DNA of 17,718 nt from Promethearchaeota archaeon (GTDB lineage Archaea; Asgardarchaeota; Lokiarchaeia; Sigynarchaeales; SOKP01). The notes below the pieces were generated by a model, which saw only the letters and a program-made list of their open reading frames with translations, was not told the DNA's origin and made no database searches. A program made the position numbers and the translations under genes. Below are positions 4,806 to 17,718 of the stretch, piece after piece (position 1 is the first letter of the stretch; each line of letters starts with the position of its first letter). The DNA lies in the NCBI GenBank assembly GCA_030605085.1, contig JAUWBH010000126.1:1-17718 (forward strand). Direction: 5' to 3'.

Positions 4806-4910
4806 GCAGATGTAGCCTAGCTGGTAAGACGCCGGCCTCGAGTGATGTTTCTAAAAACCAAGAAAGCCGGTGCGCGCAAGCGCTCGGGGGTTCGAGTCCC
4901 TCCATCTGCG
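4806..4910 (+). tRNA. tRNA-Ser (anticodon CGA) with intron
   Basis: Acceptor strands GCAGATG (4806-4812) and CATCTGC (4903-4909) pair fully; the discriminator is G4910, as in serine tRNAs; CCA is not encoded. The anticodon stem CCGGC (4832-4836) pairs with GCCGG (4866-4870). The loop is C-T-CGA-G plus A, giving anticodon CGA for codon UCG. The long variable arm has stem GCGC with loop GCAA, making it class II. The T stem GGGGG/CCCTC closes the TTCGAGT loop. A 22-nt intron lies at the canonical 37/38 site. The D stem G-C-C-T/A-G-A-C carries a C11-A24 mismatch. Confidence 0.95.
4843..4864 (+). other. 22-nt archaeal tRNA intron at position 37/38
   Basis: Removal of these 22 nt joins C-T-C-G-A-G to A and gives a normal 7-nt anticodon loop. 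A bulge-helix-bulge can be drawn: loop bases C32-U33-C34-G35 face intron CAAG (4859-4862), three of four pairs good and one C-A opposition, with 3-nt bulges AG|U and AA|A at the two cut sites. Removal by the tRNA splicing endonuclease is expected. Confidence 0.85.
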
Positions 4911-8280: not shown

Positions 8281-9893
8281 TTAAGTTAAGATGTGTATGT
8301 TATATTTACCGATTATACGCCTTACCATCGTTTTTAGGTTATATTCCGTTAATACAACCAAACCATCTTTATATATATCAATTTCATTAAATGATTCGTC
8401 AAAGTATTCTCCTTGAAGGTTACCACCGTTAGAAAATATTGAATTCTCGATTTTGACATTGAAAGATATGCTTGGTGAGCTATTGAGAACGAGATCTATT
8501 TGAGAAAGCGCAAATTGAGAAAGCGCATCTCCAGCGTCAATTAACTCTGTCCTCCAAACGCTTAATGGGGTAGGAATTAAATTATGATAACAACAGACTC
8601 CAAAAATCTTCTGATGACTTAAACTTAATACTTTATCGATAAATTTACGCAATTTTTGGCGTCCTATAAAACCTATCTTCGAATCAGGAGTTGTAGAGTT
8701 GATACTTTTGAAATATAATTTGTCAGTTTCATATAGAGGATCTAAAGAACCGATATGTTGCTCCCAATGTTGCCATGATGGGGGTTTTGAATCAGTATAG
8801 CCTGGAATAACCATATAAGGATGTTTTATTTGACTTAATTTGCTTTTTGCTATTTTAAATTCTTCTTTATAGCTATTTTTTGTTAAATTACCAGTATGTA
8901 TTACTAAGTCCACATCTTGGATTTTGTTTATTTCTTCAATGGCTTTATCAAAGTTAGTATTTTCTTTTTCTGATTTTTCTGTAATTAGGGTATTACATAT
9001 CTGAATAAACTTACAGAACGGTTTTTCATCACTTTTAGTTTCTCGAGGTGCATAGTAATTAATAGCACGCAAAATGTTTTTTTCAATTGCGGATTTAAAA
9101 ATAGGTAAAATCTTGAAATTAAGCGTATTTCCCTCGATATCAATGATGCTATAAGTACATGGTTCTCTATACCTTGTTTTATTACACGAAAATGTGCCAA
9201 CATTTTTAATATATAAGTCTTTCTGAACGCTGCTTAATTTATACAAATTCGAGATGTGCCTATGACCATTTAATACCAAGTCTACTTTAGTTTCAATAAG
9301 CATTTTAAGCATATTCCCCGAATCATCAATACTCGACCTATCTCTGCCTACATTTGGTATTGGAATGAGTTGATGATGAAAACAAATAATTTTAAACTTA
9401 TCTTGATGTATTTCAAATTTTTCTCTAAGTGTATTTATCGTTTCGTGATGAATCACACCAGTCGCTAATACCAGTAGCTCTGGACTTCAGAAACTAAATC
9501 TGGTTTTGTACTGTCTATTCCTATTATGTAATAATGCGTATCCTCGTATTCAAAATACCTTTCTCCTATTAGTTCTTCAAAAAACAAATAACCAACATTT
9601 TTCGCATCGTGGTTACCCATTACATATCTTATTGGAGCTTTAGATATTGGATTAAATTTCTTCATCAATTCCTCCGCCATTTCATAATCTGGCTGAAGAC
9701 CGTACTGCGTAATATCTCCTAGATGGATGTACAGAGCAACATCCTCAATTTCATTAATCTTTTTAATGCCCCTATCAAATGCTTTGTGATTAAACCTTAT
9801 ACCCGTTGAATCGAAATGTGTATCTGAAATTACAACAATTCTTTTTTTAGGATAATCCACATTCTTTAATTTTACTTTCTCTTCCATATTCAT
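8281..9893 (-). CDS. Tandem-domain calcineurin-like metallophosphoesterase, interrupted by a 29-nt insert
   Basis: Two frames, 9465-9893 and 8281-9456 (its first codon is GTG), are one gene split by an insert at 9459-9487. Joined, they give 527 residues. Domain 1 (about 17-260) has intact metal ligands: D24-T-H26, G-D at 59-60, G-N-H-D at 93-96, F-H-H at 162-164 and N-G-H-R-H at 199-203. Domain 2 (about 284-475) copies the same fold, but each motif is altered: N-T-L, G-N, G-Y-T-D, Y-H-N and N-S-S-P-S. It is therefore likely catalytically dead and perhaps regulatory or a dimer partner. The matching S-T-x-P-D-x-x-x-G-x-I in domain 2 shows what domain 1 should read at the break. Substrate is unknown; the fold covers phosphodiesterases and phosphatases. 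No signal peptide or membrane helix is seen. Start: ATG at 9893. Confidence 0.8.
9459..9487 (-). other. 29-nt intervening sequence in the metallophosphoesterase gene
   Basis: On the minus strand the exon ends ...GTTTCTG and resumes GTGTGATTC.... Removing 29 nt turns the broken S-E-V-Q-S-Y-W-Y-stop into L-V-S-G-V-I-H-H-E-T, matching I-G-F-I-G-R-Q at the same place in domain 2. The insert brings a TAG stop and shifts the frame by 2. It can fold from its 2nd to its 28th base: AGTC/GACT, a CAGA bulge, GCTA/TAGC and a 7-nt loop. The junction may slide by up to 3 nt (CTG on both sides) with the same product. Confidence 0.75.
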
Positions 9894-10190
9894 TATTCTT
9901 CAATCTTGTCTTATTTCTACTGAATGACCAATATATAAAGAAATCTCTTCTAGAGCATAGCCAAAATTCACAATCTTTTTTTTAGCTAAAGAGAATCTCT
10001 TGATTTATGAATATAATGTTAATTATTAAAAAAGTTTTAGATTGCATAAAATCAAAAAAATGAAGAACTTTTGAAAGAACTTGAGTCCAAAAAGAAAAAC
10101 GATTAATGCGAATTTTAAATATGATTATGACGTAAATCTCTATAATAATTTCTAAAATAGTAATTTGTTCTGCATTCATAATATCGTATC
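9894..10190. other. AT-rich gap upstream of the metallophosphoesterase gene
   Basis: This 297-nt stretch should hold the metallophosphoesterase promoter. A 70-codon minus-strand frame starts at GTG 10194, overlapping the preceding gene's end, but its product has no recognisable motif and is mostly Ile/Phe, as expected from AT-rich noise. No RNA gene or repeat was recognised. Confidence 0.3.
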
Positions 10191-10928
10191 TCACTCTTTT
10201 TTTTTTAATTTTGCTGGGTGACCACTATATATTAAATTTTCTTCTAAAATACTGTCAAAATTTGTATATGAATGAGCAGAGAGTTTCGCACCTTTCTTAA
10301 TAACCGTTCCGGGCATTAATACACATTTTGCTCCAACAAGAGCATCATTTTCTATTACAATTTTTTTTAAAATGAATTTATCTTGTTCAATTCCAAAACT
10401 TAAGATCGTACTGCCCATTCCTATAATAACATCTTTGCCAATTGATACAAACTCCGAAGAGATCCAACTATTATCACATATACAATGAGATCCTATTTTT
10501 GTGCCTAAGAATTTTAATGTAAATCTATTTTTAAGCCACGGAAAAGGATTTGAAGCGGCTATGTATAGTGGCCATTTTTTTATCATATTTCTTAAATTCC
10601 AAAATAAATAATCTCTGTCTTTCGGATCTCGTTGGAAAATTCCCTCTTTTGGTTGATGAATTAAATTTATTAATGTTAAAAACAAATAGGAGATAAAAAT
10701 CGCACTGAGATGAAGTAAGTATATTAGAAAAAATATATTTAAAGGTAATAGCAGAAAAAACAACCAATAACTTCCGTCATTCCAAAAAAATATATAATAA
10801 CTATATTCAAATAACGAACAGGGAATAAAGCTAAACAGTATTATTACTATGTAAAGAACGAGATATTTATTGCGAATTCTTTCGTCTATTGGACAAGCAT
10901 ATCCTTTCAACGAAGCGGGTTGAAACAC
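10191..10928 (-). CDS. Membrane-anchored hexapeptide-repeat acyltransferase-like protein (downstream paralogue)
   Basis: A 245-residue protein. Hydrophobic segments at about 20-48 and 54-90 give two or more membrane spans. A linker P-K-E-G-I-F-Q-R-D-P-K-D-R-D-Y (93-107) is followed by an amphipathic stretch and a left-handed beta-helix from about 140 with imperfect hexapeptides (I-G-S-H-C-I, I-G-K-D-V-I, V-G-A-K-C-V, K-K-G-A-K-L) ending with S-G-H-P-A-K, typical of acetyl/acyl transferase trimers. The acceptor is unknown; its position in the membrane suggests lipid or surface-glycan modification. It clearly resembles the upstream gene and starts 9 nt after that gene's stop. A GGAGGA motif 12 nt upstream supports the GTG start at 10928. 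Confidence 0.75.
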   Translation of the reverse strand: MFQPASLKGYACPIDERIRNKYLVLYIVIILFSFIPCSLFEYSYYIFFWNDGSYWLFFLLLPLNIFFLIYLLHLSAIFISYLFLTLINLIHQPKEGIFQRDPKDRDYLFWNLRNMIKKWPLYIAASNPFPWLKNRFTLKFLGTKIGSHCICDNSWISSEFVSIGKDVIIGMGSTILSFGIEQDKFILKKIVIENDALVGAKCVLMPGTVIKKGAKLSAHSYTNFDSILEENLIYSGHPAKLKKKE

Positions 10929-10937
10929 TTAGAAACT

Positions 10938-11792
10938 TCATCCTCCATTATTATTTTTATATTCTGACTTCTTCAATGCCTCAACTTTATCTATAGACTC
11001 TTCTAAAGATTGAACTGGAAAAGAAATGGTTGCAGGTGTACCAACATAGATTAAATCGCTACTTAATTCTTGCCCTATACTTGTGTAACTATTTGCTCCT
11101 AAAACTGACCCTTCTTGCATTATAGTTCCTGGAGATACTATTGTTTGAGGTCCTACTATACATTTTTTCCCAATCTTGACCTTTTTAATAACAACTTTAT
11201 CATGATAAATAAGATGAGAAAAAATGCAAATGTGTAATGAGGTCATAGTAAAGTCTCCGATTTCTATAAATCTAGCTACTGGATCGATATAACCCTCGTA
11301 AGCTACTACATTTTTGCCAATCCGCACTCCAAAAAGCCGATAGCAAACAATATCTGCCCATGGCAGTGGAGTTACTCTAGCTAACCAAATCGGAAAACAA
11401 GCCGTCCAAAATCTTCGATGCATATATTTCCAATCTTTACTTCCCTTTTTAAAAACACCTTCGCGAGGAGGATATCTCCAATTTAAAAATTTTAAAATAC
11501 CCGCAGAAAAAATTATAATCGAAAATACAAATATAAAAATATTTCCATAAAGATTTAACGGTAAAAGAAGTATTAATAACCATTTCAACCATTCTTCGTC
11601 AATTACTTCCATAGGATAAATTAATTCTCCAGTAATAAAATAATATAAATAATTCCAATACCATAAATTAGCTAAAATTACTACAATTACTCCCACATAA
11701 AATTGAAGAAGAAAAATTAATGTAAACGGAGTTTTATATACGCCTGATGTGGAGATATAATCGATAATTTGTTCATCCTCGGCATTATTCAT
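10938..11792 (-). CDS. Membrane-anchored hexapeptide-repeat acyltransferase-like protein (upstream paralogue)
   Basis: A 284-residue protein. Hydrophobic segments at 22-54 and 68-104 are likely membrane helices. The linker P-P-R-E-G-V-F-K-K-G-S-K-D-W-K-Y (108-123) matches the paralogue downstream, as does F-P-I-W-L-A-R-V-T-P-L-P-W (133-145). From about 150 a left-handed beta-helix follows: L-F-G-V-R-I-G-K-N-V, I-E-I-G-D-F, K-I-G-K-K-C-I-V-G-P, S-P-G-T-I-M, E-G-S-V-L-G-A and Y-V-G-T-P-A. H188, H193 and H197 are candidate catalytic histidines. The C-terminal 30 residues are charged and perhaps disordered. It is the first gene of a two-gene operon; the two products may form a heteromer. Start: ATG at 11792, preceded by a GGAGAG purine run. 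Confidence 0.75.
   Translation of the reverse strand: MNNAEDEQIIDYISTSGVYKTPFTLIFLLQFYVGVIVVILANLWYWNYLYYFITGELIYPMEVIDEEWLKWLLILLLPLNLYGNIFIFVFSIIIFSAGILKFLNWRYPPREGVFKKGSKDWKYMHRRFWTACFPIWLARVTPLPWADIVCYRLFGVRIGKNVVAYEGYIDPVARFIEIGDFTMTSLHICIFSHLIYHDKVVIKKVKIGKKCIVGPQTIVSPGTIMQEGSVLGANSYTSIGQELSSDLIYVGTPATISFPVQSLEESIDKVEALKKSEYKNNNGG
10941..10946 (-). promoter_or_regulatory. Shine-Dalgarno site fused to the upstream stop codon
   Basis: The minus strand reads GGAGGATGA; the TGA is the stop of the upstream hexapeptide gene and GGAGGA lies 12 nt before the GTG at 10928. This supports that GTG as start and suggests coupled translation of the pair. Confidence 0.55.
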
Positions 11793-11834
11793 ATTGAATA
11801 CAACTCTCCGTTGGTTTATAATAATTTATGTCTA

Positions 11835-11844
11835 CATTATAAAG
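11835..11844 (-). promoter_or_regulatory. Probable TATA box of the hexapeptide-transferase pair
   Basis: CTTTATAATG on the minus strand, about 47 nt upstream of the ATG at 11792, leaving room for a short leader with GGAGAG. Assigned by pattern and position. Confidence 0.4.
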
Positions 11845-11968
11845 ATTAATCAGAAATTAACCTTTTTTTATTATAAAAAGTAAAGAAAGAATCATTAATT
11901 ATATATATTTATTATTTTATTTTATTATAAATTAATTCTAATATAAAATGGAAAAGATATTAAAAAAG

Positions 11969-11994
11969 TTATTTAAATAACAATTAAAAGGTGA
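11969..11994 (+). promoter_or_regulatory. TATA-like palindrome and Shine-Dalgarno of the coiled-coil gene
   Basis: TTATTTAAATAA (11969-11980), a perfect 12-bp palindrome, lies about 26 nt before the ATG, a TATA-box position for a leaderless message. AGGTGA (11989-11994) lies 6 nt before the ATG and would serve a leadered message from an upstream AT tract. Which is used cannot be decided. Confidence 0.4.
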
Positions 11995-12000
11995 GTAATA

Positions 12001-12848
12001 ATGCCGATAGACTGGGCAAAAGCGGAGGAGTCACCTGAAAAATCTCAAAAAGTTGAAGGTAGGTTTTTACTGGATTTGAGGGCTAAAGTAAATGATTTAG
12101 AAAAACAAATAACCGAATCAAAAAGTGCGTTAACTCAAATGCAAAGTGAATTGGAACAAACAAAATCTTCGCTTGAAACAACGAACTCTGCTCTAAATTC
12201 AACAAAATCTGAACTAGATACAATGAGATCTAATCTTGAATCAACCCAATCCGACAATCAAGCAAAGTTGGGAGAAAAAGACGGGATTATTAATGATTTA
12301 AACCAAAAATTAGAAGTTTCTAACGCAAAATTGAATGAAATACAAAATGAATTATCTAAATTAACGGAATCCTCAGGAGACTTGTCTGCAACATTAGAAA
12401 GTTTAAAAGGACAAATAAGTAACACTACTAATTCAGTCGCAACAAAAAACGAAGAAATAAATAAATTAAATGCAGAAATCGCCGATTTAAAAAGTAAAAG
12501 CTCGGAAACCGAACCATTAAACGCTCAAATAGCCGAATTAAATAGTAAAATTGACGAATTAAATAAAATAATTGAAGAAAAAGAGAAAGTCGTCCCAGGA
12601 AAACCTCCTCCTGTAGAAAAAGTATCCGTATCAACACCTCAACAAGAACCAACTACTGGGGGTTTTGCTCGCGAAGAACGGCTCTCATGCCCAAGTATTC
12701 AATCACTTCGGTTGATAAGGTATTGTGTGGAGCCGTTGGATTTAACATAAAAACTGTTGAAGATAAATCAAAAATTCTTAGTTATATCGGACATATTCCA
12801 ATGTATGCAAAGAAAAATGTATGTAAGAAGTGCGGGTATGAATTTTAA
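12001..12848 (+). CDS. Coiled-coil protein with C-terminal zinc ribbon, interrupted by a 29-nt insert
   Basis: As read, the frame ends at 12750 (249 residues), but its last 20 residues look out of frame. Removing 29 nt at 12696-12724 gives 272 residues ending with a four-Cys zinc ribbon: C230-P-x-C233-G-A-V-G-F-N-I-K ... V-C265-K-K-C268-G-Y-E-F. Residues about 25-200 are a long coiled coil of E/Q/K/S-rich heptads with a dozen near-repeats of L-x-x-T/S-K-S-x-L; 200-222 is a Pro/Lys/Val linker. The protein has no membrane segment. Function is unknown; the shape suggests a cytosolic scaffold or filament with a zinc-binding tip for protein or nucleic-acid contact. Downstream the aminotransferase gene begins 155 nt later, probably with its own promoter. 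Confidence 0.7.
12696..12724 (+). other. 29-nt intervening sequence in the coiled-coil/zinc-ribbon gene
   Basis: The exon ends TGC-CCA-AG and resumes G-TGT-GGA-GCC. Any 29-nt deletion in this immediate register rebuilds the C-P-x-C-G knuckle in frame with the second knuckle C-K-K-C-G; no shorter frame-restoring deletion does. The insert shifts the frame by 2 and splits the knuckle exactly. It can form a small stem (TAT-CAA with TTG-ATA). The flanking exons contain a perfect 8-bp complement, AACGGCTC (12677-12684) and GAGCCGTT (12730-12737). Confidence 0.75.
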
Positions 12849-12857
12849 TTTTTTTTT
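12849..12857 (+). terminator. Oligo-T terminator after the zinc-ribbon frame
   Basis: Nine consecutive T begin directly after the TAA at 12846-12848, followed by more T tracts. The location after the second frame's stop, not after the premature stop at 12750, fits 12848 being the true gene end. Confidence 0.5.
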
Positions 12858-12972
12858 ATTCTTTTTATTCTTTTGATTATTACAATACATTTTTAATTCA
12901 TCTGTAGATTCATTTCGTGGTATTATAGGTTTTAGATGGTATAATTGTGCCAGAGATTATAATTTTCAAAAT

Positions 12973-12981
12973 TTTAATATA
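12973..12981 (+). promoter_or_regulatory. Probable TATA box of the aminotransferase gene
   Basis: TTTAATATA is centred about 27 nt before the ATG at 13004, so the message would be nearly leaderless. No Shine-Dalgarno-like sequence precedes the ATG, which agrees. Confidence 0.4.
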
Positions 12982-13003
12982 CAACTTTCTGATTATTTAA
13001 ACT

Positions 13004-14337
13004 ATGGAAAAAAAGTCAAAGAAAAAATTCATTGGGACCTTGTCTCAAAAAGAATTGCTTAAACTCTACGCAAAGTATGTGAATAAACCTAAGGTATCGA
13101 CTTTTAGGGGATTTGGATTTGGAGTAATTCCTGGAGAAAGGAATGGCATTTACTTTAAAACATTAGCAGGAGCAAGATCCTCTGAACCTCCTTTAGAAAT
13201 GATAAATTGCCGATCCTCAGGTGGAGTATTTAATCTTGGTCATCATAATCCGAGAATTGTGCAAATTCTAAAAGATGCTTTAGATGGAGGATTAGATCTT
13301 GGCGATCATATGCTTTTATCCGAATGGAGAGCTATTTTAGGCAAAAAATTAGCTGAATTAATGCCTCCAGGCATAACCAAAACCACTTTTGGTGTGAGTG
13401 GAGATAAATCAGATTTTTCTGATTTAACATAAGTGAAGCGGTAGACACCGCTATAAAATTTGCTCGAGGCGTTAATAAAAGAAAAGGTTGTATTTCAGCT
13501 ATTGGGGCGTATCACGGTCATACAATGGGTGCATTAGCATGTGGGAATTCTGGATTTAAAGATCCTTTTCTTTGGAATATTCCCGGTTTTCAACAAGTAC
13601 CTTTTGGAGATGCTGATGCGATGCGAAAAGCTGTTACTAATGAAGTTTCATCTGTTATATTAGAGACTATTCCGGCTTCTGGAGGTGTTTTAATTGCTCC
13701 AGAGGATTATTTTTCTGAAGTTCGTGAAATTTGCGATGAAATGGGTGCTTTAATGATAATAGATGAGGTTCAAACAGGATTAGGAAGAACAGGAGAGTTT
13801 TGGGGTATATATGGTGGATTATATCCAAATGAGAAGGTAGTTCCTGATTTTATTGTGTGCGGAAAAGGAATGAGTGCAGGTATTTACCCCCTTTCAACTT
13901 GCAGTTATAAATCATTTGTTGAAAAAGTATTCAAAGACGACCCCTTCATACATATTTCTACTACAGGTGGATCCGATTTAGGTTGTGCAGTTACGTGCGA
14001 AATGCTGGATATTCAATCTGATCCTAAATTTTTAGAAAATGTAAAAAAAATGGGAAAGTTGTTCTTGAAAGGATTAGAGGAAATAACTACTGAAAATTCT
14101 GATTTAATAAAAGAAGTGAGAGGGAGAGGTTTAATGACCGGGATGGAGTTTTACAAAGAATCTGATGCTCTGTTGGGAATGTTAAGTATAATAAAAGAAG
14201 GCGTATTGCAGAATTATTGTGGTAATAAAAAGGATACATTAATTATTATGCCACCTTTAATCGTGAAAAAAAACGAACTCGAAGATATTATTAATAGAAT
14301 TCAACGAGCAATGTCAAATTTAAAAAAATTAAAATAA
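13004..14337 (+). CDS. Class III PLP-dependent aminotransferase, interrupted by a 29-nt insert
   Basis: Frames 13004-13432 and the downstream frame (open from about 13433 to 14337) are one gene; joined without 13404-13432 they give 434 residues, the usual family length. Landmarks in order: an N-terminal G-V-I-P-G-E-R-N-G block, N-L-G-H-H-N-P (substrate/cofactor region), F-G-V-S-G at the break followed in the other frame by E-A-V-D-T-A-I-K-F-A-R, Y160-H-G-H-T-M-G, I-I-D244-E-V-Q247-T-G-L-G-R-T-G (Asp contacts the pyridine N), and C-G-K278-G-M-S-A-G, where Lys is the Schiff-base residue. The family includes GABA, ornithine and glutamate-semialdehyde enzymes; the substrate here is not evident. 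All PLP residues are intact apart from the interruption, which argues against long-standing decay. It converges with the large gene at 14521. Confidence 0.85.
13404..13432 (+). other. 29-nt intervening sequence with 9-bp hairpin in the aminotransferase gene
   Basis: The exon ends AGT-GGA-G and resumes GT-GAA-GCG-GTA. Removing 29 nt restores V-S-G-G-E-A-V-D-T-A-I-K, the class III signature; sliding the cut by a base or two only changes the x of S-G-x-E-A. The insert holds a perfect 9-bp stem, TAAATCAGA (13405-13413) with TCTGATTTA (13418-13426), around TTTT, then a 6-nt tail. It ends the first frame with TAA and shifts the frame by 2. Confidence 0.8.
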
Positions 14338-14520: not shown

Positions 14521-17500
14521 TTAAAAAAAAGGTTCTTCTTCATCCGAAAGTGATAAATTTTCATAATAGCTCTTAAAAAAAAATAATAAATGCACAATTC
14601 TTTTTCCTTCCTCACTCATATAAAATCTAGTTGGATTGTTACTATCTCCAAAAATAATTGTACCATATTTTTCCAAACTATTCTTTCTTCTTCTAAAGAA
14701 TGAGCGTATAGTACTTACATCATCTTTTCCCATTTCATTCGCAAGATCAACAGTAGAAACTTTATCCTTTTCTTCCATAATTTTAAATATTGCAAATAAG
14801 TATTTCATAAAAGCTTTATATTTTACAATCTCAGACTTTAAAGGATTTTTAATTGATCCTATACTATGAATAAGGTTTTGTTTATATTTTCTTAATGTAT
14901 TTTCTTTATCCTCACGAACTTTTCTTATTATATTTTGATCGTCATAAGTCTTTTCTACTAATTCCAAATCAGTATGGATAACAGTATGGCAATTATGACA
15001 AACATAACCCCCTTTATGATATTTCTCTTGCATTTCTCTAACAAGCTCAGCACAAGAATATTTTTTATATAAGTCGATAAGCCTTTTTTTCTTCCTTTTT
15101 TCCCTTTCCTCTGGCGTTAGGTCTCTTAATTTATACAAATGGCTATAGTCAAATGCACGTGAGTGATCTACTATATTAAATTCTCCACAAACAGGGTAAA
15201 TTCCCCCATAAATACGATCAACAATGTATCTTTTTTTTATTCTATGAATAAGCCTAATTTTTATCTCTTTTTTATCTCTTTTACTTAACTTCCCTTGATA
15301 AAAAGCCTCTACACAAATATAAGCAAGTATATGAATAATCTCAGCTGGGAGGTCAAATATATCTTTATAAGGAAACTCTTTAGGTATGTTTTCCCAATTT
15401 ACAAATTTGTTAAAATGGGGATAGTCATCATGAATTACATTGTGGTGACATCCACATTTTATAACTACTGATTCTCTTTCCATTTTTTTAATTAAATCTT
15501 GTAAAAAATATGGATTACCTCGATTCTCGTTAAATAAGCTATACAATTCGGTAACTGTATATCCCTCTAATCTTGAATATTCATGATGAAATACTTTAGA
15601 TCTTATTCTCGGAAGAGATGTGTTTACAGTAAAACCTTCATTTAAACAATCGGGACATAAAGCCACCCCATTTCTAAAATCAAAATGTATTCCACCATCA
15701 ATATATTTCATTACATAAAGTTTTATTCTACTACCAACAATCCATTGCCGTTTTTTTCCTGTTTTATCTATCCAATATAACTCATCTTCTTTAGATTGTG
15801 TTTTAGCGGGGAATAAATCGGAATATTCTGTTTCTTTTAAAAAATTAAAAATATCTACAATTACATCAAGAAGCCCTCGTTTTGTTAAAAATAAATTAAT
15901 TTTTTTATTTATTAAATATTTAACGAATGGAGCCATAGAGAAAACAGCCCCAATTATTTTATGAGTTTTGTTTGATATTATCAATAATTTTATTATATTA
16001 ACCAAATCAGTAAAATATTTAGTAAATGTATCTGAATAATTGTTCGCCACATCTTGAAGCGTTTTAATCTCTTTCTTTGTAAGGTGTTTAAGTAAATTCT
16101 TTTCTTTTGATGTTAATTGCCTCAAAATTTCTTTATTCGCATTAGTAATAATCTCTCCTAAGCGCAAAACGATTCTAGATGTATCTATCTTCCTTAAACG
16201 TAAAATAAGTTCAGATAAGTCAGTTTTTGCAATTAGTAATAATTCAAAAATATAGAGTGATATAATCCTTCTAGAGCTTTTCAACTGAGCGCTTTGAAAA
16301 TTAAAATTTAATTTTGGTGCTAAATCTTTATACCATTTATTATACAGTTCATTGACTGCTTTCGGATTTGCTTCAATCAATTTTGCCAATCCTCTTCCTG
16401 TAAGTATAGGCATGTTTTCATTTGAAACGGTAACTGCGTAAATAATTGCCGCCGCATGCGTTAACGGATTTGAGTTTTTAGGTATGGTTATTTTACCTCT
16501 TACGGCTCTTAAAATATGTTTGTCTAATATCTCCTCGGTTTTTTCTAATATAAGTTCTTTTTGATTATCTGTGGCTTCAAATAAGGGAGCTAACCTTCTT
16601 ATATCGTTCATTACTCTCTCCTTAAAGTTAGAAACATTAATAAATCCATTAAATCCATTAAAAGTCTGCCAATATTTTTCCATGTATTGTTTATATCCTT
16701 TACCTAATAACGATTTCAATTCTTCAGAATGAAGTTTGCTTAGTATATGTCTTAATTCTTCTTTATCTTCTTCTGTAAGTTGCTCCTTTTGAATAATCTT
16801 TATTAGTTTAGATTTTTCATTTATGCTAACCATTGTACTTTTATATAGATTTTCCCTTAAAACCTCCTTGAAATTTTTTATATCAGAGTTTTGTTCGTTT
16901 AAAACTTCTTGTAAGAAAGTCTCGTTTATAATTGACTCTAATTTTTTTCCAAGTTTTTTAGCTACACTCTTTCCCTTAATGATTAAACTCTTTTCGTATC
17001 CCTTTGTTGCATATTCCTCGTGTATTGCTTGAAAGTCTCTTAGATTTTCAAAAAGGTGGCGATAATTAGGATTGAGTTTTTTACCTATTTCCGCTAAAAG
17101 CTTATCTTTTCTTTCGTTTGAAATTTTATTACTATAAAAAATATTCTTAAGGTTGCTATAGATTTCAATTATATTTTTTAGCTCGGCGTTAATTTCTTTC
17201 GATAATTCCCCTTCTGGAACTTCGTCAATATGCTCTTCTAACGTTTTTGCCCATTCTTCTTTTGGCTTATCTGATAGAATTTTATTAATCTCATTAATTT
17301 CTTCTTGTTCCTTCAAATTCTTTACTATGTGTTGCTTCCATTCTTTAAAGTCTTTAGCCTCCTTTCCAGCGCTTATGGCTCTCCTCCCTGTTTCTCGTTT
17401 ATACATCTCTTTAAGGTGTTCGTACTTATCGTCTATTTCAGATCTTAGCTTTTCTAATTTTTGAGCAAGAAGGATAGGATATCTTTCTTTTCTTGAATTA

Positions 17501-17718
17501 ATTACCGAATCGTACAAACATTTTTTATTATAATCGTAAAAACGCCGAAAATAGTACAGTTCCTCAAACATTTCCGCATTTTTTTCGGTTGTTTCCTTAA
17601 ACTTTTCGGATAATTCTTTAAGCTCTTTCTTTTCTTCTTCTGAAATTTCCCTACTTTCGTTTTTTAGACGTAGATATTGTTTTCGTTTAAAAAATTCTCT
17701 TGCCTCGTTGTATTTTTT
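14521..17718 (-). CDS. Large TFIIB-cyclin-fold/HNH-like zinc protein, 5' end beyond window
   Basis: The frame is open to the right edge, so the N-terminus is missing: 49 codons precede the first in-window ATG at 17571, for 1065 codons in all. Numbering from that ATG: 1-330 is charged and helical, probably coiled coil. Residues 362-425 (S-N-P-L-T-H-A-A-A-I-I-Y, L-T-G-R-G-L-A-K-L-I, Y-N-K-W-Y-K-D-L) resemble a TFIIB/TFB cyclin repeat. Cys/His groups follow: C-P-D-C near 638, K-C-G-C-H-H near 705, and an HNH-like module from P-V-C-G-E-F-N-I-V-D-H-S near 790 to C-H-N-C-H-T-V-I-H near 858. Residues 930-975 (V-S-T-V-D-L-A-N-E-M-G ... S-F-F-R-R-R) look like a winged helix. The combination points to DNA binding, perhaps a nuclease or transcription-associated factor, but no known family was recognised. 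The last residues are acidic. Confidence 0.65.
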   Translation of the reverse strand, partial: KKYNEAREFFKRKQYLRLKNESREISEEEKKELKELSEKFKETTEKNAEMFEELYYFRRFYDYNKKCLYDSVINSRKERYPILLAQKLEKLRSEIDDKYEHLKEMYKRETGRRAISAGKEAKDFKEWKQHIVKNLKEQEEINEINKILSDKPKEEWAKTLEEHIDEVPEGELSKEINAELKNIIEIYSNLKNIFYSNKISNERKDKLLAEIGKKLNPNYRHLFENLRDFQAIHEEYATKGYEKSLIIKGKSVAKKLGKKLESIINETFLQEVLNEQNSDIKNFKEVLRENLYKSTMVSINEKSKLIKIIQKEQLTEEDKEELRHILSKLHSEELKSLLGKGYKQYMEKYWQTFNGFNGFINVSNFKERVMNDIRRLAPLFEATDNQKELILEKTEEILDKHILRAVRGKITIPKNSNPLTHAAAIIYAVTVSNENMPILTGRGLAKLIEANPKAVNELYNKWYKDLAPKLNFNFQSAQLKSSRRIISLYIFELLLIAKTDLSELILRLRKIDTSRIVLRLGEIITNANKEILRQLTSKEKNLLKHLTKKEIKTLQDVANNYSDTFTKYFTDLVNIIKLLIISNKTHKIIGAVFSMAPFVKYLINKKINLFLTKRGLLDVIVDIFNFLKETEYSDLFPAKTQSKEDELYWIDKTGKKRQWIVGSRIKLYVMKYIDGGIHFDFRNGVALCPDCLNEGFTVNTSLPRIRSKVFHHEYSRLEGYTVTELYSLFNENRGNPYFLQDLIKKMERESVVIKCGCHHNVIHDDYPHFNKFVNWENIPKEFPYKDIFDLPAEIIHILAYICVEAFYQGKLSKRDKKEIKIRLIHRIKKRYIVDRIYGGIYPVCGEFNIVDHSRAFDYSHLYKLRDLTPEEREKRKKKRLIDLYKKYSCAELVREMQEKYHKGGYVCHNCHTVIHTDLELVEKTYDDQNIIRKVREDKENTLRKYKQNLIHSIGSIKNPLKSEIVKYKAFMKYLFAIFKIMEEKDKVSTVDLANEMGKDDVSTIRSFFRRRKNSLEKYGTIIFGDSNNPTRFYMSEEGKRIVHLLFFFKSYYENLSLSDEEEPFF

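Follow-up and report, generated by a model that had tools for sequence, protein, structure and literature searches.

Splicing of messenger RNA (mRNA) in archaea has been shown for the gene cbf5, and the cited sections of PMC2738675 state that as of 2009 it was unconfirmed for other genes, though introns had been predicted. The textbook bulge-helix-bulge (BHB) is a 4-bp helix between two 3-nucleotide (nt) bulges, and in transfer RNAs (tRNAs) exon 1 pairs with the intron (PMC4090602); the cuts fall between the second and the third bulge residue (PMC2738675). Here we describe three 29-nt inserts that split three protein genes within 4 kb of contig JAUWBH010000126.1 of a Promethearchaeota archaeon, analysed over its whole stretch of 17,718 nt (the window). 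The genes encode a metallophosphoesterase (minus strand), a coiled-coil protein with a C-terminal zinc ribbon (plus strand) and a class-III aminotransferase (plus strand). These inserts are likely BHB-type mRNA introns, with excision predicted to be carried out by the tRNA-splicing endonuclease. We found no report of introns in Asgard protein genes in the available text of the open-licence PubMed Central literature, preprints excluded.

The crenarchaeal cbf5 intron resembles these inserts in being a short protein-gene intron that is absent from some relatives, mostly forms an unconventional BHB and has been gained and lost (PMC2738675). It is cut between the second and third bulge bases, a feature attributed to a hetero-oligomeric splicing endonuclease (PMC2738675). 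However, cbf5 is a single gene, whose splicing was shown with complementary DNA in several species (PMC2738675), whereas in the window splicing is predicted, for three unrelated genes with inserts of one uniform length, in an Asgard host. Archaeal tRNA introns at position 37/38, including that of the tRNA-Ser of this very contig, have the same layout as the inserts, with 3-nt bulges and with exon 1 paired to the intron's 3' portion; the tRNA-Ser intron also has one imperfect central pair and lies in the same energy range under our BHB rule. The differences are that the host is here an mRNA, so that coding sequence supplies the outer helix, and that the inserts measure 29 nt instead of 22. Intron-rich Asgard archaea have also been described: in three genomes of Atabeyarchaeia and Freyarchaeia, 92-95% of the tRNA genes contain introns, many of them at non-canonical positions, but the cited sections of that study describe introns in tRNA genes and not in protein genes (PMC11291895).

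The window is of Asgard archaeal, Lokiarchaeota-like origin. Matches to the joined aminotransferase come from 13 Lokiarchaeota/Lokiarchaeia assemblies (67-79%) and one Heimdallarchaeota assembly (57%), and the gene order around the split genes is kept in several of the matching Asgard assemblies. An earlier, sequence-only reading of the window had proposed that each gene is interrupted by exactly 29 nt, and both a mechanical scan of 158 sequences and alignments of the joined proteins bear this out. The scan covered 157 loci from relatives plus the window (1506 reference frames, 788 merged gene blocks counting those of the window, and 1,786,627 bases including overlaps between loci); it flags only inserts whose length is not a multiple of 3, and many of its references are closely related to one another. 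The insert length came out as 29 nt in 46/46 flagged comparisons for the phosphoesterase, 9/9 for the zinc-ribbon gene and 56/56 for the aminotransferase. Smaller scans of relatives agree, though one missed the zinc ribbon. When the joined proteins are aligned with uninterrupted orthologues, no gap occurs within about 10 residues of the joint at 15/15 loci for the aminotransferase (14 Asgard and one distant bacterial), 6/6 for the phosphoesterase and 8/8 for the zinc ribbon. Each insert adds 2 modulo 3, as had been noted. The zinc-ribbon insert contains no in-frame stop and only shifts the frame.

The sites are empty in related genomes. Among 227 Asgard genomes searched, the aminotransferase was uninterrupted in all 40 with a match (E-values up to 1e-50; open frames of 434-453 residues) and the phosphoesterase in all 52 with a match (E-values up to 1e-25; open frames of 371-574 residues), and the frame of about 140 residues expected from an insert was absent from these 40 and 52 genomes. 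For the zinc-ribbon gene 74 Asgard genomes matched, and the best 31 rows among the matches listed pass through the ribbon without a stop. A broken conserved frame together with a precise empty site in relatives is the pattern of archaeal BHB protein-gene introns, and it is what the window presents. As a separate observation, five zinc-ribbon rows that are otherwise full-length contain one in-frame stop within the aligned part, TAA in G109:C258, G131:C50, G149:C335 and G154:C56, and TAG in G114:C183.

The proteins also constrain where the exons join. The aminotransferase joint is fixed at 13403/13433 by the motif GGEA, found in 14/14 Asgard orthologues, and the zinc-ribbon joint is best placed at 12694/12724, which yields CPMC as in 8/8 relatives, while on protein grounds alone the phosphoesterase joint could fall at any of about 10 positions. 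The predicted peptides that span joints are GVSGGEAVDTAIK and SCPMCGAVGF. By protein alignment, the zinc-ribbon gene consists of exon 1 at 12001-12694 and exon 2 at 12724-12848 (plus strand); its joined frame aligns to 8/8 relatives, and the split codon, with A before the insert and TG after it, restores the methionine of CPMC. The aminotransferase, likewise delimited by protein alignment, has exon 1 at 13004-13403 and exon 2 at 13433-14337 (plus strand), with the domain PF00202 in the downstream half. In the register with an insert at 9463-9491, the phosphoesterase has exon 1 at 9492-9893 and exon 2 at 8281-9462 (minus strand), and PF00149 is found in both halves.

Folding of the joints points to a BHB. 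Our rule took a 29-nt intron with the textbook geometry fixed and at least three of four central pairs, and recorded, for each of the 35,196 positions on the two strands, the lowest energy attainable under these constraints. Read in the register that brings back the conserved methionine (predicted intron 12695-12723, one base upstream of the 12696-12724 given by the sequence-only reading), the zinc-ribbon joint ranks first of all positions with -20.9 kcal/mol, and the aminotransferase joint, in the sole register that gives GGEA (predicted intron 13404-13432), ranks sixth with -12.7 kcal/mol. For the phosphoesterase, the registers 9463-9491 (4/4 central pairs) and 9461-9489 (3/4) both reach -7.8 kcal/mol, around the 33rd place (33 of the 35,196 positions are as good), and 9459-9487, the register of the sequence-only reading, is worse. 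Fisher's combination of the three ranks gives about 3e-8 with 5, 1 and 5 allowed registers, and about 6e-8, by hand, with some 10 registers for the phosphoesterase.

In the zinc-ribbon gene the predicted parts are bulge 1 at 12693-12695, a hairpin at about 12696-12717, bulge 2 at 12722-12724 and a central helix of 12689-12692 with 12718-12721 (3/4 pairs). The outer helix, formed by exon sequence, extends over 12677-12737 (12677-12684 with 12730-12737, and 12686-12688 with 12725-12727) and exceeds in stability its counterpart in each of the 36 distinct relatives compared that have no intron. The corresponding aminotransferase parts, also on the plus strand, are bulge 1 at 13402-13404, a hairpin at about 13405-13426, bulge 2 at 13431-13433 and a central helix of 13398-13401 with 13427-13430 (3/4 pairs). 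Its outer helix, also formed by exon sequence, lies within 13391-13449 (13391-13395 with 13445-13449); of the 31 distinct relatives compared that have no intron, 30 show a less stable helix here. In both genes the constrained fold is less than 2 kcal/mol above the free minimum. The four perfect central pairs of a strictly canonical BHB occur only in one of the two phosphoesterase registers, whereas a relaxed BHB, with both borders between the second and third bulge base, is found in the three genes, more weakly in the phosphoesterase. The common register with a G before the insert and GTG after it, which the sequence-only reading had given, is not required; it leaves only 1/4 central pairs in the zinc ribbon and 2/4 in the phosphoesterase. 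Folding the joints freely gave no minimum-energy shape common to all three. The opposite BHB orientation, in which the 5' part of the insert pairs with exon 2, was tried and rejected, as it has too few pairs in the aminotransferase and the zinc ribbon and is weak in the phosphoesterase.

A tRNA gene in the window provides a positive control. It lies at 4806-4910 on the plus strand, was found by Rfam (RF00005, 42.9 bits) and missed by ARAGORN, and has a long variable arm. Its isotype (tRNA-Ser, CGA), the 22-nt intron after position 37 (4843-4864, site 37/38) and the intron borders were read by hand. Under the BHB rule, with the length set to 22, this intron has 3/4 central pairs and scores -12.2, and none of 6000 random positions was as good; two of the inserts therefore equal or surpass the score of a tRNA intron from this very organism. 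The five relatives examined (L005, L006, L007, L011 and L012) each have a tRNA match that is likewise 105 nt long.

The split genes look functional, as had been supposed. The joined frames contain no stop except the last, and pairwise nonsynonymous divergence (dN) of the exons lies between 0.08 and 0.28 in 19 of 20 pairs, one pair having failed. Synonymous divergence exceeds 1 in all 14 pairs for which it could be computed and is saturated in five. This constraint would speak against old pseudogenes, not against very recent ones; the dN test is silent on the latter because most of the divergence predates the inserts if these are young.

A protein from another assembly bears on the age of the aminotransferase insert. 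P0002, from a metagenome-assembled genome (MAG) labelled Hermodarchaeota, is encoded on a contig of 4293 nt, has 142 residues and resembles the truncated aminotransferase of the window. It ends in GVSGDKSEYSDLP, where the window reads GVSGDKSDFSDLT, the tail encoded by the insert. Given this near-identical tail, another species has an insert much like that of the window, beginning at the very same base. Unless the aminotransferase insert spread laterally, P0002 would speak against its having arisen very recently. A tree built from the first 133-140 residues places P0002 with P0003, which is 91% identical and has no insert, and a clade of P0002 and the window was rejected (approximately unbiased test, p-AU 0.006), although 133 residues are a thin basis and a first tree had been viewed before the test. 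This grouping would be accounted for by gain and loss of the insert or by its lateral transfer into one site. If the alignment is gapless, the proline codon of P0002 supplies C at both position 24 and position 25 of the insert; the window has A at the first and C at the second. The C at position 24 would then form a pair with the G left mismatched in the window, a further hint, read from the protein sequence of P0002.

Other metagenome proteins end or change frame near these sites. P0021 (144 residues) and P0022 (138 residues), ENA metagenome phosphoesterases of the window's broader group, end within 1-2 codons of the insert site of the window; these ends possibly mark a second recurrent insertion site, or else contig ends. 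The follow-up search on the two proteins covered 120 of 228 matches, those listed. Two aminotransferase metagenome proteins, P0007 and P0008, enter another frame near GVSGGEA; by eye, these look like one-base shifts rather than 29-nt inserts.

The enzyme expected to act on such introns is present in related genomes. Genes for the PF01974 endonuclease occur in 14 of 15 related genomes searched, with two or more in 13. Lokiarchaeal genomes (L187, L188, L189, L190 and L158-L161) carry two splicing-endonuclease paralogues, of which the catalytic one resembles chain 3p1z_B, which we take to be the Aeropyrum pernix enzyme. In G107 the catalytic paralogue has a K-P-R loop, resembling the loop specific to crenarchaea, that lines up with identical residues of this chain, and the motif is present in all five genomes whose catalytic paralogue was inspected. 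The second paralogue, read by eye, is without the active-site histidine. In A. pernix the loop substitutions P45A and R46A drastically reduce intron cleavage, and K44 is conserved in crenarchaeal enzymes (PMC12397907). Enzymes of the (alpha-beta)2 and epsilon2 types cleave relaxed BHBs efficiently, with the loop-less M. kandleri enzyme as an exception (PMC6379350). Because of the paralogues, the K-P-R loop and these enzyme data, relaxed mRNA BHBs would be plausible substrates for the endonucleases of the relatives.

We propose that both cut sites lie in 3-nt bulges that flank a central helix of four positions, in which exon 1 pairs with the insert's 3' portion, and that a hairpin occupies about positions 2-23 of the insert. 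The tRNA-splicing endonuclease would cleave the pre-mRNA after the second base of each bulge, an RNA ligase would then join the exons, and the joined message would be translated. The shared length would be accommodated by a single plan: one bulge base, a hairpin part of 22 nt, four helix positions and two bulge bases. We conjecture that the common 29 nt may point to a single family of introns whose size has been maintained. Descent from one such family is the simplest idea for the shared length, yet the insert sequences show little likeness to one another. As for the fixed 29-nt class put forward from the sequence, it holds for the three genes and may extend to P0002, but no further case appeared in the sampled relatives: the mechanical scan found no other 29-nt split in the 157 loci, and its other candidates (+1, +16 and +19) were all obtained against one reference protein. 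The palindrome of the aminotransferase insert was also considered as a dispersed element and rejected. With one mismatch allowed it occurs at six places in 5 of 227 Asgard genomes; of the five places inspected, four are inside unbroken frames and the remaining one is outside any frame of 50 codons, and none is in viral contigs.

Several observations weigh against the inserts being BHB introns. The support consists of sequence comparison and computed folds. The BHB geometry was spotted by eye before it was scored, and the hairpins carry much of the energy; positions 12176 (minus), 9497 (minus) and 4851-4852 (plus, inside the tRNA gene) outrank the aminotransferase joint. The central helix is mismatched in two of the three cases. 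The phosphoesterase is the weakest case because its constrained fold lies about 7 kcal/mol above the free minimum; its outer helix is also unremarkable, with 3 of 31 relatives (register 9463-9491) or 9 of 32 (register 9461-9489) as stable. BHB splicing does not demand 29 nt, as the 22-nt tRNA intron of the window illustrates. The sampled relatives, which possess the endonuclease, show no such insert in the mechanical scan, and the enzyme evidence comes from their genomes. Finally, P0002 is represented by its protein sequence up to the stop, and the MAG behind it seems to be without the phosphoesterase insert, as P0128, which has the same accession prefix, reads straight through.

These reservations have to be set against the merits of other explanations. 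An assembly error or recent pseudogenes, with inserts that are not real or not removed and genes that are dead, would be compatible with inserts confined to one contig and absent from all sampled relatives, and P0007 and P0008 testify to ordinary frame errors in the aminotransferase gene. We regard this as unlikely: the three inserts have one length, the joined genes are otherwise free of frame damage and the joints coincide with top-ranked BHB folds. An assembly error in particular is hard to square with the three equal lengths and with P0002, where a different assembly has a closely similar tail at the same base. Excision by other means, either from RNA by an unknown nuclease of 29-nt elements or from the DNA, seems quite unlikely. 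A fixed length without clear sequence likeness, the imperfection of two of three central helices and the fact that every joint can be written in the common G/GTG register would suit it, but the registers favoured by the aminotransferase and zinc-ribbon proteins are those in which the BHB forms; for excision from DNA, the inserts are present in the assembled DNA and nothing was found in its favour.

Programmed ribosomal bypassing, in which the ribosome hops over the insert, is known from phage T4 gene 60 and the byps of Magnusiomyces mitochondria, which likewise are short frame-breaking inserts with hairpins in functional-looking genes (PMC8211752). The sequence-only reading had named it as a possible mechanism, but the required match of take-off and landing codons breaks down in two of the window's three genes, and we consider it very improbable. 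The phosphoesterase does have an exact TTA...TTA pair at a skip of 29, giving DLATGVIHH, and a second exact pair at a skip of 44. In the zinc ribbon, on the other hand, none of the nine skips tried (20-44, in steps of 3) offers an exact pair and the take-off region is not followed by a stop, and the only pair in the aminotransferase, at a skip of 35, would lose both conserved glycines. Bypassing would suit one gene of the three. Pseudogenes, assembly error and bypassing all fit worse than BHB introns, and the suggestion of very short archaeal mRNA introns made from the sequence has gained support from the exact length, the empty sites, the P0002 tail and the top-ranked BHBs at the joints favoured by the proteins.

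Asgard archaea are believed to stand near the ancestry of complex cells. If the inserts are BHB introns, mRNA splicing by the tRNA endonuclease could become routine near the root of eukaryotes, gene callers would split real Asgard genes in two, and the locus would offer a testable system for the entry and exit of introns in coding sequence without a spliceosome. We advance only tentatively the broader idea, doubtful at present, that the protein genes of an Asgard lineage host, across the whole genome, a mobile family of BHB introns with a fixed length of 29 nt, which come and go at fixed sites. Should such a family exist, many messages would need tRNA-endonuclease splicing before translation, which would amount to routine mRNA splicing without a spliceosome in archaea closely related to eukaryotes.

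Elsewhere in the window, the minus-strand frame at 14521-17718, of more than 1000 residues, has no Pfam match at E 0.01 and is matched in only 1 of 77 loci compared; its C-terminal half contains cysteine-rich stretches.

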